64,000 bases of DNA from Beroe forskalii (taxonomy: Eukaryota; Ctenophora; Nuda; Beroida; Beroidae): NCBI GenBank assembly GCA_011033025.1, contig WFMF01000030.1, positions 744,001 to 808,000 on the forward strand, written 5' to 3'. This document shows positions 4,899 to 53,584 of the stretch, piece after piece. Under the pieces are notes generated by a model. That model was given only the letters and a program-made list of their open reading frames with translations. It ran no database searches and had not been told where the DNA came from. Positions within the stretch are counted from its first letter, which is position 1; the number at the start of each line of letters is the position of its first letter. The translations under genes were made by a program, and so were the position numbers.

Positions 4899-5085
<187 letters not shown>

Positions 5086-5159
5086 GGCTGGCGATTCGTT
5101 TTCACGTTAGCATCAAAATTATATCTTAATCGTGTTGCAAGATAGTTACAATGAATCAG

Positions 5160-5725
5160 AAAAATATAGAAAAATTTTTGTGGTCACCCTGAGGGTCACG
5201 GTGGCCACGCCCTTTTTTTTCGCAAAATTTAAAGTTCCGAATTTTTTCAAAATTCTTTCTTCGCCGAGTTGCTTATGATGAACAAAAATTTTGAGAAATT
5301 TGTCCGCAATATTGGGTCACTCTGAGGGGCGTGGGGGCCACGCCCTTTTTTTCCGCAAAATTTAAAGTTCTGAATTTTTTCAAAATTCTTTCTTCGCCGA
5401 GTTGCTTATGATGAACAAAAATTTTGAGAATTTTGTCCGCAATATTGGGTCACTCTGAGGGGCGTGGGGGCCACGCCCTTTTTTTCGCAAAATTCAAAGT
5501 TCCGAATTTTTTCAAAATTCCCTCTTCACCGAGTTGCTTATGATGAATAAAAATTTTGACAATTTTGTCCGCAATATTGGGTCACCCTGAGGGGCGTGGG
5601 GGGCCACGCCCTTTTTTTTCGCAAAATTCAAAGTTCCGAATTTTTTCAAAATTCCCTCTTCACCGAGTTGCTTATGATGAATAAAAATTTTGAGAATTTT
5701 TTTCCGCAATATTGGGCCACCCTTC
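5160..5725. repeat. 133-bp tandem repeat, about four units
   Basis: The landmark GGCCACGCCC followed by a T-run recurs at 5206, 5339, 5472 and 5605, exactly 133 bp apart. Each unit also carries TCGCCGAGTTGCTTATGATG (or TCACC variant), a run of AAAATTTT motifs, and GTCACTCTGAGGGGCGTGG. The first copy is the most diverged and the last is truncated. No coding function is suggested. Confidence 0.92.
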
Positions 5726-37391: not shown

Positions 37392-40300
37392 TCAGCTGGA
37401 GTAAGATAACTTGAAGGCCTCAACCACGGGGATATCGAGCGCTTTGACACTCAAAACGGCCTTTTCAAAGTGTGATCGGTCAGATCTGACTTCAACTTAC
37501 CGCAATGAATAACTTAAACGCCCTTCGAGCGAGAAAGTCTCATTTAAGCATTTAGTCATTTCAAGCCAAATGGAATTGCAGGAGTCCGCTAAACTTAAAA
37601 TAGGGCTCAATCAGAATCCTAAATACTTTCTCAGCGGTAGAATAAAGACAGATCTCCTTACCTCAAAGGTAAAATCTTTCTGTTCAGTATCCTTGAGAAC
37701 GACTTGGGTGGGTTTAGCTTTGAGTCCCCTAACGTTTATCTGCTGAATCTTGTTGGTGTTGTGGTGACCAGGATACCGCAGTGTTACTTCTGATCTGATG
37801 TCGGTCTGAGAGAGCGACGATCAACGATTACAGGCGGTATGATCTATATTCATAATGGCTACATATGGGGAGCATCGATCTCATTTCAATTTGGATCGCT
37901 TAGATCCACACTGAAACTTACCATAGTGGCATTGAAGGTGACGTACAGGAACTCAGCATGGGATATGGTGTGTAAGGAGGTGCCGTCGTCCGTATACAGC
38001 TCACCGAACGCTGAGCCGTCCAGGCTGAGGTAGACGTCCACTACGTAGTCCCCTTTCTCATTCCTGCCGGGGAGTGAGTGGGACGTGAGGGGGAGTGAGT
38101 GGGACTTTAGGAGGGGGAGTGAGTGGAACTTGAGGAGGGGGAGTGAGTGGAACTTGAGGAAGGGGAGTGAGTGGGAAATGAGGAGGGTGAGTGGATTGGA
38201 CTTTAGGAGGGGGAGTAAGTGGGACTTGAGGAGGGGGAGTGAGCGGGACTTGAGGAGGGGGAGTGAGCGGGACTTGAGGAGGGGGAGTGAGCGGGACTTG
38301 AGGAGGGGAATGAGTGGGACTTGAGGAGGGGAATGAGTGGGACTTGAGGAGGGGAATGAGTGGGACTTGAGGAAGGGGGTGGATGGGACTTGAGGAGGGG
38401 GAGTGAGCGGGACTTGAGGAGGCGGGGAGTAAGTGGGACTTGAGGAGGGGGAGTGAGCGGGACTTGAGGAGGGGAATGAGTGGGATTTGAGGAGGGGGAG
38501 TGAGCGGGACTTGAGGAGGCGGGGAGTAAGTGGGACTTGAGGAGGGTGGGTGGGACTTGAGGAGGGGGGTGGATGGGACTTGAGGAGGGGGGTGGATGGG
38601 ACTTGAGGAGGGGGGTGGATGGGACTTGAGGAGGGGGAGTAAGTGGGACTTGAGGAGGGGGAGTGAGCGGGACTTGAGGAGGGGGAGTGAGCGGGACTTG
38701 AGGAGGCGGGGAGTAAGTGGGACTTGAGAAGGTGGGTGGGACTTGAGGAGGGGACTGTGAGCGGGATTTGAGGGGGAGTGAGTGGGACTTGAGGAGGGTG
38801 AGTGAGGGAGACTTTAGGAGGGGGAGTGAGTGGGATTTGAGGGAAGGTGAGTGGGACTTGAGGAGGGGACTGTGAGTGGGACTTGAGGAGGGGAGTGAGC
38901 GGGACTTGAGGAGGGGAGTGAGGGAGACTTTAGGAGGGGGAGTGAGTGGGATTTGAGGGAAAGTGAGTGGGACTTGAGGAGGGGACTGTGAGTGGGATTT
39001 GAGGGGGAGTGAGTGGAATTTGAGGAAGGGGAGTGAGTGGGAAATGAGGAGGGCAGTGAGTAGGACTTTAGGAGGGTGAGTGGATGGGACTTTAGGAGGG
39101 GAGTGAGTGGGACTTGAGGAGGCGAGTTAATGGGACTTTAGGGGGGGGTGAATGGAACTTGAAGATAGCAACTCAGACTAATTCAACTTATGAATATGAT
39201 GAACATTTCGAGAGCGAAGCGAGTGGACCGCAAAAAATGCAGGAGAAATGCAGGTCTGTAGCCAGGAAGGAGCCCCCAAAAACAATCTGGAGTACCCAAT
39301 TTTTGAAATTTTTCCGGCACTTCGTCCTAAACTCCTGCCGTAGCTTGTTAACTCAACAGCGTCTTACCCGGAAAAAGTCCTGGCTACGGGCTCGGAGAAA
39401 TGGGGTATTGGGCCGAGCACCCTTGAGGAGACGGGAGTGAGTTGGACAGGGTGGGACTCAAGGATTAATTTACTTATTAAGTGCTCTAGTCGTTACTATT
39501 TTACTTATGCTTCTTATTAAATGGCGAACGCGAAAGAGGGTAGATCTATAAGAGTTATAAGAGTTACAACATAAAACATTATATTATGTGACATTTATCA
39601 TCGCAAATTTAAGTTGGCTTTCAGAGAAAATTGAAAACTATTCAAAGAATGAAATTGTGCTCCCATTTTTCGAAATAGATGAACATTTATGAAAATCAAT
39701 GGTGTAAAGCCGTTCATTATTTAGGCTAGCCCCAGGCACTCAATAGCGTCTGGGACAAAGTTCTAAAGTAGTCCAAATTTCACTTTTATTAATTCCTGTA
39801 GATTTTGATGGTGCCAATACTTTCCAATATTTTTCCGTTTCGTAAAGCTTTTCTGGTAGCTACGATGCTCCTCTATCATTTCTAGCCAAAACCTCCATTT
39901 TGGCAATCGACACTCCGAAGACCCCCCTGCCCCCTTAACAATCAGGTGTTAATCTTAATAACTCACGTTTCTTTGGTATTATTGGCCGTGTTGAGATGAG
40001 ACATGACTATGTGACCTCCACGGACATAGTAAGTTTGACTGTCCATGTTTACCACCTGACTAATATAACCTGAGGTGGGGAAATCCAGTATTATATTATG
40101 GGTAAAAAGTGTGTTCAAAACTTCCGAAATATTGGGAGTGAAAGAGGAAATTAGAGTAGATACATTCAGAAACAGAAAGGGAAAAAGTGGAAATGCATAC
40201 GTCAGCTGATGCCCAATTCAACTCTGAAAACTAATAGGATATGAAACTGACCAGGAGCGGAGATGGTGTTGGAGGGGTCAAGGTAGTCGTACCACAGATC

Positions 40301-43300
40301 ATCAGGGAAATACACATGATTTGTACTAACACCCTGTAAAAATAGATGTGAGTAATTTAAAGTTGTCTGATACTAGTACATTGGTGTCAGTAACGGACAA
40401 CGGCGTCAGTAACGGACAACGGTGTCAGTAACGGACGTCGGACAACGCTGTCAGTGACGGCCAACGGTGTCAGTAACGGCGTCAGTAACGGTGTCAGTTA
40501 CGGTTTCAGGTGCCAGAAACAGTGCCAGTAACGGTCCTGTCGAAGACTCTGATTTTACACTCACCGGTTTCAAGACGGGAGCTACCATGATACTATCCCC
40601 AAACATGAACTGAGTCTCTATGGACAGGGTGGTGGAGTCGGTGAGGTAGTCAAAGAAGAGAGGTCTCACCACCGGCAAACCTGGTATGAGATAAGAATTT
40701 TACAACTAAGAGATAACAGGGACTGTTTAATTTCCTGGAGTTTGCAGTATTTATTCCTTGTTTCATTTAACAGATCAATGCATTAACTTATCTGCACGAT
40801 GCACTTTTAACCATATGCACGAGGACCGTTGCCATTTGTCGTATATTTCGTTCATGGTTAAATGCCATCTCATTCCATGTTTTATTCTCCCAACCTTTGG
40901 TGTGGGCGTTGTAGAATAGTGTGTAGAGGGTGGGTAGCATCTTGTATCGTAGCTCTATAGCTGCTTGTATCTGCTTCACTGCCCGCTCACTGAACGTAGA
41001 CAACACGCTGGTTTCCTGGGAATATTAGCAGGTGATGTCACCATAAGCTTGTTTACCTAACGAGACATATTAGCATATTCAAGAAGTGTGGAATGTGGAC
41101 CAAAAAATTCGAAAAATTTCGTATCCCATAAAATTTCAGTACGATATCAATACCACTGCCACTACTCCATTTCCCTCGAAATATACCACTCTCTGGAATC
41201 TACGAGACCCAAGACCTTCAGTTAAATATTCACGTTATAATCATGTACACTAATTGTGTCATTACTTCGTTATGTGTTCATAATATAGAGCTAGCATTAG
41301 ATAATTAAGTCCGATCGTTGTTTACCACAATCTAAGATTTTGTGTATTTTGGTATTTCCTACATTCTACAAATCAATGCACACGATATAAGTGCCAGATA
41401 GAGCTAAGTATGTCGGTTAGTAGAAAGCACTTCACTAACTGCATAATTGCAGTGAATCTCTTTACATTCTACATTATTCCATCATCAGAATACGGGCTAA
41501 TCAAGTAGTTTCGAACAACAGTAGATTAAACTATTTAAGAAGGTCGGAGTTAGATGATCCAGTCGGAATTTTTGAAGGAAATGTTTTATATGTGGTTGTT
41601 TGTAACAGAGTTTTTCATTCCATTTTTATGGGATGCCATTCCCAGTTCTCCACAATCCATACTTCCATATCCATTGAAAATGGATTGATCATATAACAGC
41701 ACTTCTTTACCGTGGTTTGTACATATTAAATAGTTTTCGAATGATTACTCGTATTATAGCTTTATAGTAAACTTGATTAGCAGGTAGGGGTTAAAACGGC
41801 CAAAAAAAGCCACATAAAAAAAACCTAATTCCTAATATAAGCCCACCTGGGAAGGGTAACGCTTCATGAAGGGATAGAACACAGCCAGCTGATGCCATCT
41901 CACACACAGCTCTTCTGCAGCTGTAACGAGAAGTAGGATTAGTAATAGAATTAGTAGTAGAATTAATAGTCCTCAAATCAAAGTGGTATGAACTGCGAGA
42001 TTCGTGAAATACTTTAACCAAAGTGGATTCATAGGTAGTCAAGAAATCAGGTTTGGAAAAGCAGAAAATCCTCCTAGGTATATCAAAAGAGGATTTTATG
42101 GGCGAAATTTTGTTTTGTCTCTCCAAACAAACCGTTCATGCACTTACTTGAATCCTGTGGGTCGCTATAGTAACCACAGATATTTGCACCGACGAATGGG
42201 ATTCCGTAAAGGTTGTAGTTCAGCATAACTGAAAAGTGAAAATATAACATACGCTTAAATTGCATGAAACAAAAACTTATCGGAAAACGGAATATTTTAC
42301 TGTAGTATGCTGGGTAGATCAACCTCCATACTTCCTTAATATTAAGAAGTTAAAACAGTGAGATGCATCATATTCAGGAGAAACCACGGAACGTAAGTAC
42401 AGAGTACAAGATACTTAAGCTGACCCCCGATGGAGTCACCCATTTTCCCAGCTTACCCCCGATGGAGTTACCCATTTCCTCCCATACTTATCCCCGGCGG
42501 AGTAACCCAGATGGAGTCGCTCATTTCCCAAGCTTGCCCCCGATGGGGTTGCCCATAATTCCTCCCACACTTACCCCCGATGGAGTTGCCCATTCCCCCC
42601 CCCGCTTACCCCCGATGGAATTGCCCATTTCCCTCCCACGCTTACCCCTGATGGAGTTGCCCATTTCCTCCACGCTTACCCCCGATGGATTTGCCCATTT
42701 CCCCCCCGCTTACCCCCGATGGAATTGCCCATTCCCCCCCCCCCGCTTACCCCCGATGGAATTGCCCATTTCCTCCACGCTTACCCCCGATGGAGTTGCC
42801 CATTTCCTCCACGCTTACCCCCGATGGAGTTGCCCATTTCCTCCACGCTTACCCCCGATGGAGTTGCCCATTTCCCCCCACGCTTACCCCCGATGGAGTT
42901 GCCCATTCCCCCCACGCTTACCCCCGATGGAGTTGCCCATTTCCTCCCACACTTACCCCCGATGGAGTTGCCCATTTCCTCCCACGCTTACCCCCGATGG
43001 AGTTGCCCATTTCCTCCCACGAGGCGGTGTTCTCCTTGACGAAGTGCCCGGCCACGGTCCCGGAGCCCAGATAACTGGACCTGCTCATCAGCAGCGTTCT
43101 CTTGTCCGTTATGACTTGGGACAGGACCCTGGAGCACAGAGAATATGAGAGCAATCCTTTCTTGTGTAACAATTTATTGAAACTTGACCAGAAATTAATC
43201 CTTACCTCATTAACTAATTAATAATTATAATTGATATCAGAACTCCCATTCATTATAATAATTTATAAGAGCAAAAACAGTTCTGAATTTTTCCTTTCTT

Positions 43301-46300
43301 CTTTTCTCCGATCTGTCATTTTACCAGCGGCTAGGTATTCAGATTTCAGAGTGCATTGTACGGAGTAGGTATGCCTTTTTTTACTTATTTATGTGCGTGT
43401 CTTACCGCTTTGTAACCTCAGAACTCTTCCAACCGTAGATATTATGAACATCATAGTGTTTCAATCCACCATAATGCTGGGCACTAGGACATATCGTTGC
43501 AGTCTTCAACTTTGGAATGTTTTCTAGAGGAAAATGAAATCATCGATCATAATTTTAATGATACGTAATTCCATGTCAGTATGCTGATACTGAATACAGA
43601 ACCAACATGGGTATTTTTAACTCAAGAGGCTTGTTAGCGCTGGAAATGATCACTCATTACTAGGAATGTATCTCGAGGATTTACCCCTCTCTTACTCAGC
43701 GTATAGGCGGGGTAATCCAGATCGTCGTTCAGCGAGCACCCCGTCACACTGCCGTTGGAGACTGTCGTCGGTTCGTTCTCCTCCAACGCCAGACCATCGA
43801 ACTGAACAGAGGACCGGAGGTTGGCGAGAGCGTCCTTCAGCCAGAGTTCCGTGGAAGGGTGGAAGTAGTCGAGGAGAGCCGCTGCCCCACCCTCAACCTG
43901 GGACATGAGCGGGAAGTTTTTTAGAAAAATCTAGGGCAGATTACAGAAACCAGAATCACCTTTGTAAAAAAGTTTCGCTCAGGAGATTTATGAAGAAATC
44001 AGAATTTAAAAAATAAAAAGCTCCATCCAATGATGAAGTCAAATTAATAGAATTTTAACTCCTCAATAGGATTTTCTAATTATCAAAAACATTCTATTTT
44101 TGAGGATTGGTAACTTGATACACGTAACACATGCTTCTTACTTTCTTACTTGATAAACAAGTTTTCGGCGCGTGGAAACCTATAATATGAGTACATTATC
44201 GATTGCTGAGCTCACCTCGACAGTAAGGGTCTTGTTGGAGTAGTCTCTGATGAAATTGGGCGTGGTTTCCTTGTAGAGCGAACTGTTTTTCTGAGGAGCA
44301 GTAAGCATGATTATAATATAAGTGGCGTTTTAAACTACCCGTAGGATCCATGACATGGACCAATCACCAGTAAAAGAGAAACAGAAAATTTTCAGTGAAA
44401 TATAAAATTTATAAATTCATCATAAATCAAATCATAAATGGATATGGTTGTTAAATAAAACATGAAAATCGAGCAAAATACGGCGTATTTGTTCCTGAGC
44501 TCATGGAGAAAAATAATAGTGTTTTTTCACAAAAATGGGCGACAAGAAATAAAATACTTGAATAGGGGTTGTTGAATACGCGAAAAAATAAGCGCGCAGC
44601 TGAATAAAATTTTGAATAACATGAATCACATTTAGAGTGCGCGCGGGACGTTTTTGCACACATGGCAATGCAAATTTATCATGAAAGTTGAACGATGCAT
44701 TTTGGCTGCTTATTGCAATATTGCATTCCAAAAAACGGCAATTTTCAGAAAAAAATGTGTATCGAATTTTTTGGCGTATTCAAAAATATACGTTAATGGA
44801 ATATCACAGCTATTTTGACAATAAAATTGTATGTTTTGAAGTGAGAAAAGTTACTACCTAAGTTAGTTAAAAGTTTAGGCATTTTTCTAAAGCTCTAAGC
44901 GCTGATGAAGGAGATCTAATACATCAGTTTCATAACAGATCTCACCAGTACAGCAGGTCGGGTATCAGTGAGGAACCACATGTCATTGTCGTGTAGAGAC
45001 GACACTGCCGTGTCTATATCCGTAAACAGGAGGTTAGTGGCGTATTGTTCCTTGTCCTTGAGCAGAGACTTCCCAGCCCATACTCCGTCCTGGATACAAG
45101 GATGTGATAATTCAGATATATATTACTTCAGTGGAACTTAATATAATTCGGTGCTACAGCCTACATTCGAAGATTTGAGCTTTTAAAAATAATTGTATTT
45201 TCCACTGAAATATGATAGTTATAAAACCCAACTGTTATTCAGGCCTGAACACAATAATATAATCTACTATAAGAATTATTTCTTCACAAGAATCTTTTAT
45301 TGATCCCCAAACTCCCAAACACGTGTTTGAGTAGCACTCCTCAACTTACCAAGGGAAAGGGTGCAGCAAGGAGTTCTGTTACGTTGATGTCACTGGTAGT
45401 CCGGTAGTTCTCACTCCCAAAGTGGTACCCTAGTGCCCAGAGGGGTGGTAGGAAGGGGTTCCCGATCTGAGTTGGGGAACCAGGTAAGTAATATTATTAA
45501 AGTATTAAGATTATTTTCAAAACTTGACTAAGCTGTCAGCTGAGGAAGGTTCAGGGAATACGAGTCTTCCGGTCCTTAGGCCCTTCTCTGTTATTAAGAA
45601 AATATTCACGAATTCGTGGTTCGCGTACTTTGTCACAATCATAATTATTACAACAATTGATGAAGGTATTTTAATCTCTTCCAGAAACGCACAAGTTGGG
45701 GAAAACGATAGACTGAAATGTTGATTAATTTGAAAATTCCATCCTCCGGAAATTAGAGGCATTGGCTGGCCGTGAGTAATTTAAATTACATTTGACGTAG
45801 ATAAGACAGTCATGGATTTATCTGAACTTTAAAATATGAGTTTTATATGATAAGGCATCAAAGAATGTTGAAAATATTTAGATGAATTTATTGGGCAAAA
45901 TTTCTTCTAATTTTCTAATTGATCACGTATATGAGTATATGATTTCAAAGCCTGATTTAAACTTCGCAGTTCATGACTGTTACATGAATTCTAAATATTT
46001 AATTTTCATGACAGGACCTTCAAAAAGCCCAGCACATAATGGCCACCGCATGATTTCTTATCCGTGATTTAATTAAATGCTGATATTTTACACATGACGA
46101 GAGTGTAATTGTAAACTGTCAAGAGGTCAAGCATCAGATAACGATAAAACATGTTGAATTATAATGGCTAGATGAAAGTCTGACGTCATAAGATAATATA
46201 AGCACTCATGATACAAGGTTACATTACATTTCTTCATACCTAGTCAGTGCATGGGTGCTGAAATATGATTACAAAATACATAGACACGCTAACATACCTT

Positions 46301-49300
46301 GTGAGCGAATTGAGATATCACATCGGCAGGGTTGGGTCCCAGGAAAATGTAGAAGTCGAGGATACCCCCAGTAGTGCGGAATGTTATAGCAGGGTTAGGG
46401 TTCAGGATGATATCTGGAAATTGAAAATGAATTAAAGACTGGTTAATAGTTAATACGGTGCGCACAGAAATCAGAAATCTGAACAAGGATTCATCCACTT
46501 GAAATGGTTTACTGTGCTCACCCATGGCGTTGGAGTTCTGGAGCAGGAAGCCACTAGCATGCCCGTCATTCTCCACGTGCAATAAGAAGGGGTGCGCGCC
46601 ATGTCTCTTCCCCCCGGCGGAACACCACAAGCTCTCGTAGGTGTACTCCATGCGCCGTAACAAGCCGTCCTGATGGTCGCCTCCCAGTCCGTACACGTTA
46701 CTGGGATAGGGTTCATGTATGAAAGGAGGGCATCAGAAACTGGTAAATAATTGCGGATTATTGGATGATTGAACTTAGTAAGGGGCCAAGGTTTTCGTGT
46801 TTGGTTTTCTGAGTTTTGTTCCTGACAGAGGAGAACGCCTTCAACCAGTAGGCTTTCACCACATGAAGGAAAATCGTTTTCAGCCGAAGTTATGATTTTT
46901 AAAATCGCAATTTGCCGAAAATCAACTTTAAATCTTCAACATGGACAACCTATAACTGAGTTACGTAGGTCATTTCCTTGAAACTTCACAGTTAGGCTCC
47001 GATAAGTTAACTAGCATCTTGGCTAGCAATTTATGAATAAAAAAACCTCGATGAGAGCCTCATATTGAGCTGCAGAAACTGGTCTGAGAACATCAGTCCT
47101 TCCATGGTAGTGTTGAAGATGGTCGAAGTTGCTTCATGAGTTCGAGACACAGCAAAGCCAAACAAATCCTGCGTTATTGTCAGGATGTACTGCATTCGGT
47201 GTCCTGTTTTTGAGTGAACTGAGTTCATTGGAACCTGAAATTCATTCTGTTGCAATTCAGTTTGAATTTGGGAGGAAAAAACGAAAACCTCAAATAACGT
47301 GTCTAGTATGTAATCTAAGTTAATTGAATAAGTTCAGTAAGTTCAGTAAGTTCCAATAAGACAATCAAATTTGAGAATTGAAAATAATAGGTACTGTAAA
47401 CATAGAAAATAATCATGACTAAAACCTCGTAGCGATCAGGTGAGTTAAAACAGAGAAAATAATGATAACTCAAACCTCGTAGCGATCTGGTGAGTTGGGG
47501 TCGAATATCTTAACCCTCAGACGACTATCAGTCTCATAGGATATAATGCATTTGAGTTTATCTGCTTCACTTTCAAACAGTTTTTCCAGTGTATCTATAC
47601 GTTCTAAATCAATCTCCATTCCCCACAGTTTTACAGTGCTATTTGTGACTTTATAACCTGAATTTTATCAAGAAATGGAAAACAAATTCAAAAAATTAAG
47701 CTTGAATCAATCAGCAGGTTCATAAACTTAAAGAGATGGTAAAATTAAAGAGATGATATGCCAGCAATAAAATACCTATTCTAATATTCTATGTAGATCT
47801 ATCATACCACACTGAAAAGACAAGTTTGAAAAAGGCTTAGAATTGTGATGAATGATACCTCTGAGATTTGTGAAAGGATAGTAGCACTTTGGTGCATTTC
47901 CAATAGCTGAACCATCCCAACACCCTCCCCAAGTCAGACAATGTGTTTTAGAAGAAGCAATACCAAAACCAGCATCTATCCGAGAAGACTTGTCCAGTGA
48001 TTCACACCTCTAAAATTTTGAATTATGATACAAGGAATACCTAGTTTGAAGATAGGCTACATACCTACAACCTCAACTTACTGACAAGAAACATAAGCAA
48101 TACACAAACAATTTGAAACTTGGTTAAAAAAGAAATAGCGTCATGCCATTTAATATCTTATACAACAGTACTGTAGTTAATTTACCATTGATAATAATTT
48201 GATTTCACATTAATTATTCCTTAATGAGAAGTCTTCAAACATGTTTTCAATCTGACTAGTTCCTTGCTCTCATCACAACCTAGATGCCAGATGGTACATT
48301 GTAATTCTAGAGCAGTAAAAAGTTATAATTGAATTTACATACCTTTAAATGTTCTCTGAATGGTTTTTGTTGTTTCTCTATGCTAGCATATACAATTGAA
48401 ATCACTGACAGAACAACCAATGCTGAAATGAAAGTTCTTTAAAACTTCTTAAGAGCTGAAATATTATGAATATAAACTATGAGCTAGAAAATAAATAATA
48501 TTTTTTGTTTGCTCAATAGTACTTGATAATAAATAACAGTTTTATACATTTTATCAATTTTACCTGTCTGGTATGGTTGTTATCAATATCATACTGAACA
48601 ATTTGTACTGGTACTATTGAGTCAAAAGAGAACAATTAGATTACTCGCTAATTGATAGAATAATCAGTTTAAGCATATATTTTATTTAAAAATTAATCAT
48701 AATTAGGCCTTTCACTGAAGAGCATCACACAATGTAAAAGCAAATTCTCAATTCAATAGTTTATATTTACTTACCCACAGCTAATATCAAGGTGACTTTC
48801 TTCTCTTTTGTCATTGAATGAAACTTTTCTTTTAACTTTCGTTTCCGCCCATGAGATGTGACATGATCAGCCTGAAAAATCAGGAATATCGTGATTAAGA
48901 CAGGGCTTACATTATAGAGAATCACACATCAAACCATGATCACATCAAAACATAGTGAAATTCAATGATTTATGCTGAGGAATATATCATAATTCAACAT
49001 AATATCAACAATGCTGTCAGGTTCTTCTTTAAACTTCATGGTAAAAGTGAATGGTCATCAATCAAGCAAAACAAACTTTTCAAGAACTGAACCAGCTTTT
49101 CAATAAACTAGTATAGTGGACCTAAATCTTTGAATAGTTTGTCTTATTCAATGAGGTATTCCTGAACTTAGGGATTTTTAGAAACACTTGAAAACATTCA
49201 CTTTGAAGAAGCTTTTATTAAGGGGATTGATTTATTGTATTGATCTTCAATGGCCATCAGTTAACCCATAGTCTTTTAGTACCATCTTTGTTTTGATAAC

Positions 49301-51695: not shown

Positions 51696-53584
51696 AGGTG
51701 TAAATATGTTATTCCAGTGATATGGGAAGATGGGCGATACGCGAGAATGGGTCTTGTGTGTATCCCAAGGTGGGACGGGGGCAGAGAAAGGGGCGGAACC
51801 CCAGTAAGGGACAAGGGCAGAACCTCAGTTAGGGAAAGGGGCAGAACCTCAGTTAGGGACAGGGGCGGAACCTCAGTTAGGGACAGGGGCAGATCCTCAG
51901 TTAGGGACAGGGGCAGAACCCCAGTGAGGGACAGGGGCAGAACCCCAGTGAGGGACAGGGACAGAACCTCAGTGAGGAACAGGGGCAGAACCTCAGTGAG
52001 GGACAGGGGCAGAACCTCAGTGAGGGACAGGGACAGAACCTCAGTGAGGAACAGGGACAGAACCTCAGTTAGGAACAGGGGCGGAACCTCAGTGAGGGAC
52101 AGGGGCAGAACCTCAGTTAGGGACAGGGGCAGAACCTCAGTTAGGGACAGGGGCAGAACCTCAGTTAGGGACAGGGGCAGAATCTCAGTTAGGGACAGGG
52201 GCAGAACCTCAGTGAGGGACAGGGGCAGAACCTCAGTTAGGGACAAGGGCAGAACCTCAGTGAGGGACAGGGGCAGAACCTCAGTTAGGGACAAGGGCAG
52301 AACCTCAGTTAGGGACAGGGGCAGAACCTCAGTTAGGGACAGGGGCAAGAATCTCAGTTAGGGACAGGGGCAGAACCTCAGTGAGGACAGGGCAGAACCT
52401 CAGTTAGGGACAAGGGCAGAACCTCAGTGAGGGACAGGGGCAGAACCTCAGTTAGGGACAAGGGCAGAACCTCAGTTAGGGACAGGGGCAGAACCTCAGT
52501 TAGGGACAGGGGCAGAATCTCAGTTAGGGACAGGGGCAGAACCTCAGTGAGGGACAGGGGCAGAACCTCAGTTAGGGACAAGGGCAGAACCTCAGTGAGG
52601 GACAGGGGCAGAACCTCAGTTAGGGACAGGGGCAGAACCTCAGTTAGGGACAGGGGCAGAACCTCAGTTAGGGACAGGAGCAGAACCTCAGTTAGAGACA
52701 GGGGCAGAACCCCAGTCAAAAAAACTACGCTATTACGTCGAAGTATGGTAAATTTCGTCAGAAATTGCTCCCAACTATCGTTCTCCCCAAATACCCATCA
52801 GCTAACCATCTGCCACGTTATTATATGATTAATATGAACTGGAACCCAGAGTCAAGATTTACGTAGCTTAAATTTATATAAGAAAATGGACCGTGAAGTA
52901 GTCAGGTTTTATGTCTAATCTAAACGGTTAAGAAGTTGAAGGACACATGCTCTTTAAGACGTTGATTAAAACATGCTAACTGTTCAGTGCTCACCATTCG
53001 CCTTCCTCGTGTCGTGCTAGAAGTGATTTGATATTGGTTCATTGCATTCCATGCTGTGGGTAACTTAATAAATCATGTTTTTCATGGGGATATCTTGATT
53101 CAAATGTCAGATTGCTGTTGGGGTTTGCGAAACCAGCTTTAATTGGTAACGAACCGCTTAACGACAAGCCTTCGAACCTATATGCTTAAACTGAGAGAAT
53201 TAAACTGTTATAGGATTAAGGCTTAAATTAAACCAATTGCTGGACCTCAAGAATTTGAGGCTTGAATTTAAACTATGCATAGGAATTTCCGTAATTTTAA
53301 CTGCACTATTTCAGGCTACGAATACTCCAGCAAATCTACCCGTACACTCTACCGCTCTTTACATCCCTGCCAGAGAGCAAAGAGTTGAGCGTGTGCAGGG
53401 AATTCTTCACGAAGCACAAGGACATTCTCAGGCAAGTTGTTCCTTCTTAAATAATGATTGTCTTGGTTTTGGAAAATGGTAATATCGGTGGAGGCCAATT
53501 TTGGGCAATCGTGTCCAGGTTACACTTATTTTCAGGGAATTGGACAAAATTTTGTTGCCCAAAGATATTATAACCTCGCTCTGA
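51696..53584 (+). CDS. C-terminal exons of an unrecognised gene
   Basis: Three exons join in phase. The first is 51696-51769 (acceptor GTAGTTCAG, donor GTGGGA), reading RCKYVIPVIWEDGRYARMGL. The second is 53315-53431 (acceptor ACTATTTCAG), containing RILQQIYPYTLPLFTSL and ELSVCREFFTKHKDIL. The third is 53536-53584 (acceptor TTATTTTCAG), reading RELDKILLPKDIITSL with a TGA stop. The intron between exons two and three uses a GC donor (CTCAG|GCAAGT), a known minor splice class, and is only 104 bp. The first intron contains a 24-bp minisatellite. The last ~80 residues are soluble and helical-looking. I do not recognise the family. Upstream exons were not found. Confidence 0.6.
51776..52715. repeat. 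24-bp minisatellite, about 39 units
   Basis: Unit GGGACAGGGGCAGAACCTCA GTTA (24 bp) with GTTA/GTGA, GGGG/AGGG and A/G variants. One 23-bp and two shortened units near 52350-52395 shift the frame. It begins about 6 bp after the donor of the exon at 51696-51769. Length divisible by 3 explains the false 8-residue repeats (RTSVRDRG on +, LPLSLTEV on -). Confidence 0.95.

Follow-up and report, generated by a model that had tools for sequence, protein, structure and literature searches.

A seventeen-copy minisatellite of an exon end and its 5' splice site in a GH31 homologue of Beroe forskalii, with one donor readable by frame

We describe here a minisatellite in the ctenophore Beroe forskalii that repeats the end of an exon of a GH31 homologue, together with its 5' splice site, to 17 copies, of which only the first, exon-side donor gives a full-length reading frame. 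We propose, with a probability of roughly 0.7, that this is an exon-edge minisatellite of the kind called 'mirage', born by slippage and tolerated since splicing uses the exon-side donor. The window is the whole 64,000-nucleotide stretch analysed, bases 744001-808000 of contig C359 in a 216-Mb genome, and the following features of it, in window positions, are needed for the argument.

37922..47234, minus strand: GH31 gene as far as modelled, with 15 placed exons (open-frame joining)
42992..43128, minus strand: GH31 exon, 137 nt, its last 30 nt being the exonic part of unit 1; acceptor CTCCAG/GGTCC (Pfam PF01055, PDB)
42419..43020, minus strand: 17-unit array, unit length 32-37 nt with a single 46-nt exception, GGGG/GTAAG intact in 14 (Tandem Repeats Finder and hand-cut units)
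42986..42991, minus strand: donor 1, GTAAGC, the sole donor with a full-length frame (frame test)
42951..42956, minus strand: donor 2, GTAAGT, +35 nt, frameshift and stop; U1 pairing -12.2 vs -9.2 for donor 1
42916..42921, minus strand: donor 3, GTAAGC, which adds 70 nt and shifts the frame; the TAA within it (42920-42918) stops all later sites in frame
42229..42991, minus strand: array-containing intron, 763 nt, ending CTTTTCAG
42148..42228, minus strand: next exon, 81 nt, VMLNYNLYGIPFVGANICGYYSDPQDS
38069..39162, no strand assigned: second minisatellite of the gene, 24-nt unit, about 47 copies, pyrimidine-rich on the minus strand (Tandem Repeats Finder)

The original prediction of about 17 tandem 5' splice sites at one exon end is borne out. 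Run on the window, Tandem Repeats Finder reports 42419-43021 with period 34, 17.0 copies and a score of 782, and 17 units cut by hand, when joined, are exactly the minus strand of 43020-42419. The repeat copies the exon end with its donor, as had also been claimed, the unit being the exon's final 30 nt plus GTAAG; a random intron repeat is rejected, since the units copy the exon end and the exon's WEEMGNSIG is recovered in later units by tblastn. Copy 1 still forms the end of the exon, the remaining copies are intronic, and the acceptor lies outside the repeat. Unit lengths are mostly 34-37 nt (in order 35, 35, 35, 34, 35, 34, 34, 34, 37, 34, 34, 36, 35, 37, 46, 35 and 32 nt), so that the predicted steps of 34-36 nt come near most units but miss the actual range of 32-37 nt and the one damaged unit of 46 nt. 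The donor GGGG/GTAAG is intact in 14 of the 17 units (13 of the 16 extra copies); the three imperfect donors have GC (42537), no GT (42491) and GTCAG (42424). Unit 3 is identical to unit 1 and units 2-8 are 94-100% like it, with units 9-17 at 59 to 94%, a distribution suggestive of recent turnover on the side nearest the exon. We give almost no credence to an assembly artefact or a chance repeat: the array is known from one assembly and tandem repeats are difficult to assemble, but substitutions and indels distinguish the units, an independent contig carries a like architecture in another gene (SIN3, below), and the repeat score itself speaks against chance. A search of this one 216-Mb assembly, with simple repeats skipped, gave one matching place and no second locus or haplotype of the array.

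The array-bearing exon is the ninth of the 15 modelled GH31 exons. Ten of these (A-J) join into one open frame and five (K-O) into another; one more exon between J and K is visible in translation and stands outside the placed set, and the model excludes the 5' end of the gene. Joined to the next exon, the array exon matches PF01055 (the Pfam GH31 TIM-barrel) with an E-value of 5.3e-17 and 62.6 bits against a curated cut-off of 23.5, which places it in the family. The junction matches maltase-glucoamylase in the PDB (E 5.5e-32), and maltase-glucoamylase and sucrase-isomaltase are the best solved relatives. At the positions that we take to be those of the catalytic Asp residues, the alignment sets the nucleophile motif IDMNE against LEENE here and the acid/base motif LGDN against VKEN here, so that Glu stands at both (LALEENEP and HFVKENTASW, window 43696-43897 and 42992-43128). 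The gene does not therefore have the residues of a catalytically active GH31 glycosidase; its product is probably an altered or inactive enzyme, and because both Asp are replaced we speak of a GH31 homologue rather than of an active enzyme. The same replacement may point to weak constraint on the gene. Five other GH31 loci, at least, are found in the genome (on C780, C995 and C224, with two on C207), of which that on C224 has an in-frame stop. All five align across the position of the array intron without interruption, and this intron would thus be private to one gene among six GH31 loci; its gain is possible, and loss in the others is equally allowed.

These observations bear on a second reading, in which the GH31 gene is decaying and the accuracy of splicing at the locus no longer matters. 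Glu at both catalytic positions and the presence of at least five other GH31 loci speak for it; ten exons forming one open frame, and a like array in the conserved SIN3 gene, speak against it, and we regard it as improbable.

Further repeats lie in and around the gene. The minisatellite at 38069-39162 fills its intron to within 6 nt of the acceptor that precedes exon 38063-37922, small arrays (12-45-nt) at 40383-40509 lie a short way past the donor that closes exon 40680-40565, and large minisatellites at 584-2951 (27/54-nt units) and 51789-52716 (24-nt units) have no link to an exon here. Across the modelled gene, 2 of 30 exon edges fall within 10 nt of an array, no more than expected when arrays cover about 12% of the sequence, and thus no preference of arrays for exon edges is shown.

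We now consider which of the donors could give a readable protein. First of all, donor 1 (42991) joined to exon 42228-42148 yields a seamless GH31 protein, WEEMGNSIG-VMLNYNLYGIPFVGANICGYY, which reads WEEMGNSIG/VMLNYNLYGIPF across the junction and aligns without a gap to maltase-glucoamylase and sucrase-isomaltase; exon 43128-42992 does end in the repeated motif, a point on which the original prediction depended. Second, all 16 other sites (16/16) lead to a premature stop. Use of donor 2 (+35 nt) or donor 3 (+70 nt) would put the next exon out of frame, with a stop inside it, and every site from 4 onward reads the in-frame TAA within donor 3's own GTAAGC (42920-42918). The expectation that the frame would change except at every third step is wrong: the extensions of sites 7, 10, 13 and 17 are divisible by three, yet each still carries the donor 3 TAA. 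Because every site but donor 1 meets a stop, only one productive transcript is possible from the array, and alternative donors would give truncated products and not protein variants. That alternative donors supply protein variants between alleles or tissues, a reading in line with the suggestion of splicing that varies between alleles, is accordingly very improbable. Fourteen intact donors are present, the units seen in another array gene (TRIP12-like HECT, below) have lengths of 30 or 36 nt in most cases, so that many donors there would keep frame, and human exon-intron boundary repeats are reported with alternative splicing (PMC2812944); in GH31, however, in-frame variation is rejected, since all sites except donor 1 reach a stop. 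The companion suggestion, that some rule must favour the proximal donor, is the one that the frames uphold.

Third, neither splice-site strength nor accessibility singles out donor 1. Duplex energies, calculated with what we take to be the 5' end sequence of U1, are -9.2 kcal/mol for donor 1 and most other intact donors, and donors 2 and 13 (GTAAGT) reach -12.2; selection of donor 1 for U1 strength is rejected, as these two pair better. Predicted 9-nt accessibility is 0.0033 at donor 1, above donors 16 and 17 and below donors 2-13 (0.012-0.12), and selection for accessibility is likewise rejected, donors 2-13 being more accessible. If the GH31 gene is functional, position would thus have to decide the choice of donor, the use of donor 1 being something that we infer solely from the reading frame.

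The same donors could also be read as a regulatory device, in which the extra sites compete, part of the transcripts become stop-containing, degraded mRNA, and copy number tunes expression. Thirteen extra intact GTAAG donors, all of them unproductive, and the better U1 pairing of donors 2 and 13 would fit such a device. Similar arrays in unrelated genes instead suggest a by-product of a minisatellite-rich genome, and amphioxus mirages are reported without disturbance of splicing; we consider regulation unlikely.

Returning to tolerance by exon-side splicing, we envisage that a tandem duplication took in the exon's final 30 nt along with the first donor bases, and that slippage or unequal exchange then raised this to 17 copies. 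With the boundary itself duplicated, copy 1 would stay on the exon and later copies would become intronic, an arrangement harmless only with use of the exon-side donor, and it is through such use that the array would be tolerated. Exon definition perhaps helps, the exon being 137 nt with donor 1 vs up to 704 nt with later sites, and the dense G-runs between the donors perhaps also help donor 1. Stray use of a later donor would lead to a stop and to removal by nonsense-mediated decay, and the array is taken to be largely neutral for the protein. It is a guess that a short match between donor and exon seeded the first duplication, since the bases after donor 1 are themselves copies; for the same reason the shared letters give no exact position for the duplication junction.

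G-runs number 45 in 567 nt of array (7.9 per 100 nt) vs 15 in 4726 nt (0.3 per 100 nt) of 12 other introns of the GH31 gene, the intron with the second array being left out of the comparison. The array exon is itself rich in G-runs, at 4.4 per 100 nt (6 in 137 nt), which tells against such a helper, the other exons have 1.0, and a strict G-quadruplex pattern occurs at 4 places in the array. In human reporters, an element inserted between two competing sites usually suppressed the 5' site on the intron side (27/32 by a refined count); the G-triplet element of that study was assayed in human cells, at 3' sites (PMC1877881). By analogy, positional choice need not be strict: downstream units are used in human IFI6, and human boundary repeats often come with alternative transcripts.

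Comparable architecture is found elsewhere in the genome. In a sample of 20 contig starts (200 kb) and two window flanks (20 kb), which with the window makes 284 kb, tandem arrays cover 11.9% of the contig starts and flanks and 12.7% of the window, where contig starts may be repeat-richer than the rest. One of these contig starts (L017, on C650) carries a SIN3 gene with an array from 5981 to 5448: the array exon matches SIN3B (E 5.8e-19), Pfam returns no family for this exon alone, and the next exon matches Sin3_corepress (E 2.1e-23). The 86-nt unit of the array consists of the exon's last part and CAG/GTAAGA, giving seven tandem donors (six CAG/GTAAGA and one CAG/GTACGA), and the exonic start of the unit, AAGAG, equals positions +3 to +7 of the donor (GTAAGAG). 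Of the seven, the first donor (5981) alone continues the frame of the conserved next exon. Splicing from donor 2 would bring a TGA of that exon into frame, and transcripts from donors 3-7 would include the second unit and meet a stop within it; for two of them the stop was located by position, and in both it is the TAA of donor 2 itself. Judged by translation, the rule that only donor 1 is readable holds for two genes, GH31 and SIN3. The SIN3 intron has a second minisatellite as well (4978-5355, 14-nt unit), which ends about 7 nt from the acceptor.

Six further arrays (L041-L046), all five listed for the donor motif CAGGTRAG and one of those for its reverse, were inspected for exons. Three of the six (L043 on C1, L045 on C77 and L041 on C2) have an exon-like open frame with splice signals running into the first unit; L042, L044 and L046 have no such frame. 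L043 (C1:310566-311228) is TRIP12-like HECT by a weak PDB match only (E 0.017), with the units seen, by eye, mostly of 30 or 36 nt and one of 43 nt, and part of this array might itself be coding. Pfam found no family in the exon-like frames of L041, L043 or L045, and no PDB chain matched L041; L041 and L045 are candidate exons by their frame and splice signals. A Pfam set of ten peptides, nine picked by eye from 119 flank frames plus a TGF-beta peptide, gave two above the family cut-off (Enhancer of rudimentary and Sin3_corepress).

Other array types were seen alongside. An array at L013 1878-2070 repeats the last codons of an Enhancer-of-rudimentary gene (PF01133) together with its stop codon, the array being seeded here by the close of a coding frame, and at L010 3535-6624 a 117-nt array, whose unit contains GTGGTAAGT, begins at the stop codon of a C-terminus that we take to be TGF-beta-like, its Pfam match lying below cut-off. 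A 38-nt unit at L016 6734-6880 holds TTTCAG, three bases and GTAAGT, that is, acceptor and donor together. In two arrays on C248 (G000:C248:400078-401127 and 412219-414958) the units can be read as ...CEGGDLHTWLSA followed by the donor GTAAGT, presumably reminiscent of a NEK kinase exon end.

Genome-wide, we counted triples of CAGGTRAG (CAG/GTRAG) with gaps of 8-38 nt, the unit being matches and not arrays, such that one long array contributes dozens. There are 2320 such triples (1352 + 968) vs 130 (68 + 62) for the reversed motif, and another scrambled motif and its reverse give 226 (124 + 102) and 60 (58 + 2); CAGGTAAGT gives 132 matches (101 + 31) vs 13 (3 + 10). Donor motifs are present in more copies than scrambled motifs as match counts, a statement about copies and not about the number of arrays. 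Among the matches listed, those of CAGGTRAG (C1 to part of C77) fall into 5 arrays and those of the reversed motif into 4 in C1-C77, with no array in C1-C77 for the other scrambled motif and its reverse; control arrays listed for the reversed motif on C217, C246 and C692 hold, by eye, the donor. Within the arrays of the 284-kb sample, donor-like 6-mers occur in 13 of 82 vs 8.9 +- 2.6 after shuffling (27 of 300 shuffles reach 13), and in 8 of the 27 arrays of at least about 300 nt vs 4.1 +- 1.6 (7 of 300 reach 8). CAGGTRAG itself has 7 copies inside the sampled arrays, a number that 3 of 60 permuted motifs reach. We advance only tentatively, as doubtful on balance, the broader idea that boundaries in this genome repeatedly seed minisatellites, so that many genes would carry arrays of perfect 5' splice sites, natural competitions in which the exon-side site is chosen regardless of U1 strength, and that the donor motif may promote the first duplication.

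Splice-site choice is a long-studied question, and tandem, near-identical donors separate position from sequence strength. If it is true that donor 1 beats a stronger donor 35 nt downstream, and likewise in SIN3 and others, the rule could be read from natural arrays, which would vary in unit length, copy number and frame. Such arrays would also have a built-in safety stop, TAA in GTAAG and TGA in GTGAG, so that, where the unit length is not a multiple of three, read-through would tend to end soon.

The closest known systems are the amphioxus 'mirages' of Adh3, troponin C, the globins BflGb6 and BflGb9, and PGBD5, described as minisatellite-like tandem duplications over an exon/intron boundary with AG/GT signals in many units, affecting both 5' and 3' boundaries, with units of 10 to 160 bp; their RT-PCR is taken by the authors to suggest regular splicing (PMC3087553, PMC3902484). 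The GH31 array has minisatellite-like repeats over an exon/intron boundary and keeps the splice signal in many units (14/17), and in structure, as read from its letters, it is a mirage. It differs from those described in having 17 units and 14 intact donors of which one is usable by frame, and in being known from one genome sequence, whereas splicing and haplotype variation were examined in amphioxus. Intron gain through duplication of an AG/GT segment, discussed in the first of these papers (PMC3087553), likewise starts from a local tandem duplication with a splice signal; the GH31 repeat, unlike it, excludes the acceptor. In human IFI6 (6-16/G1P3; Turri et al. 1995), according to a later account, a minisatellite also supplies multiple donors at an exon end, and two of its downstream units act as splice donors, so that three mRNA species arise (PMC4526556), whereas the later donors of the GH31 array would all be unproductive. 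Human paralogs in segmental duplications reportedly carry minisatellite-type repeats at exon-intron boundaries, with units of 30 bp on average and about 4 copies vs 17 in the GH31 array; these can change splicing, often with alternative transcripts, may be retained in transcripts or removed by splicing, and can give rise to new introns, with 27 intron modifications (PMC2812944). Open-access literature, covered by titles and the beginnings of abstracts, gave no other such array beyond these named systems, which is no proof of absence. Boundary-spanning minisatellites are therefore known, and to these the present case adds its count of intact donors, a frame test by which a single donor is productive, and the recurrence of the architecture within one genome.
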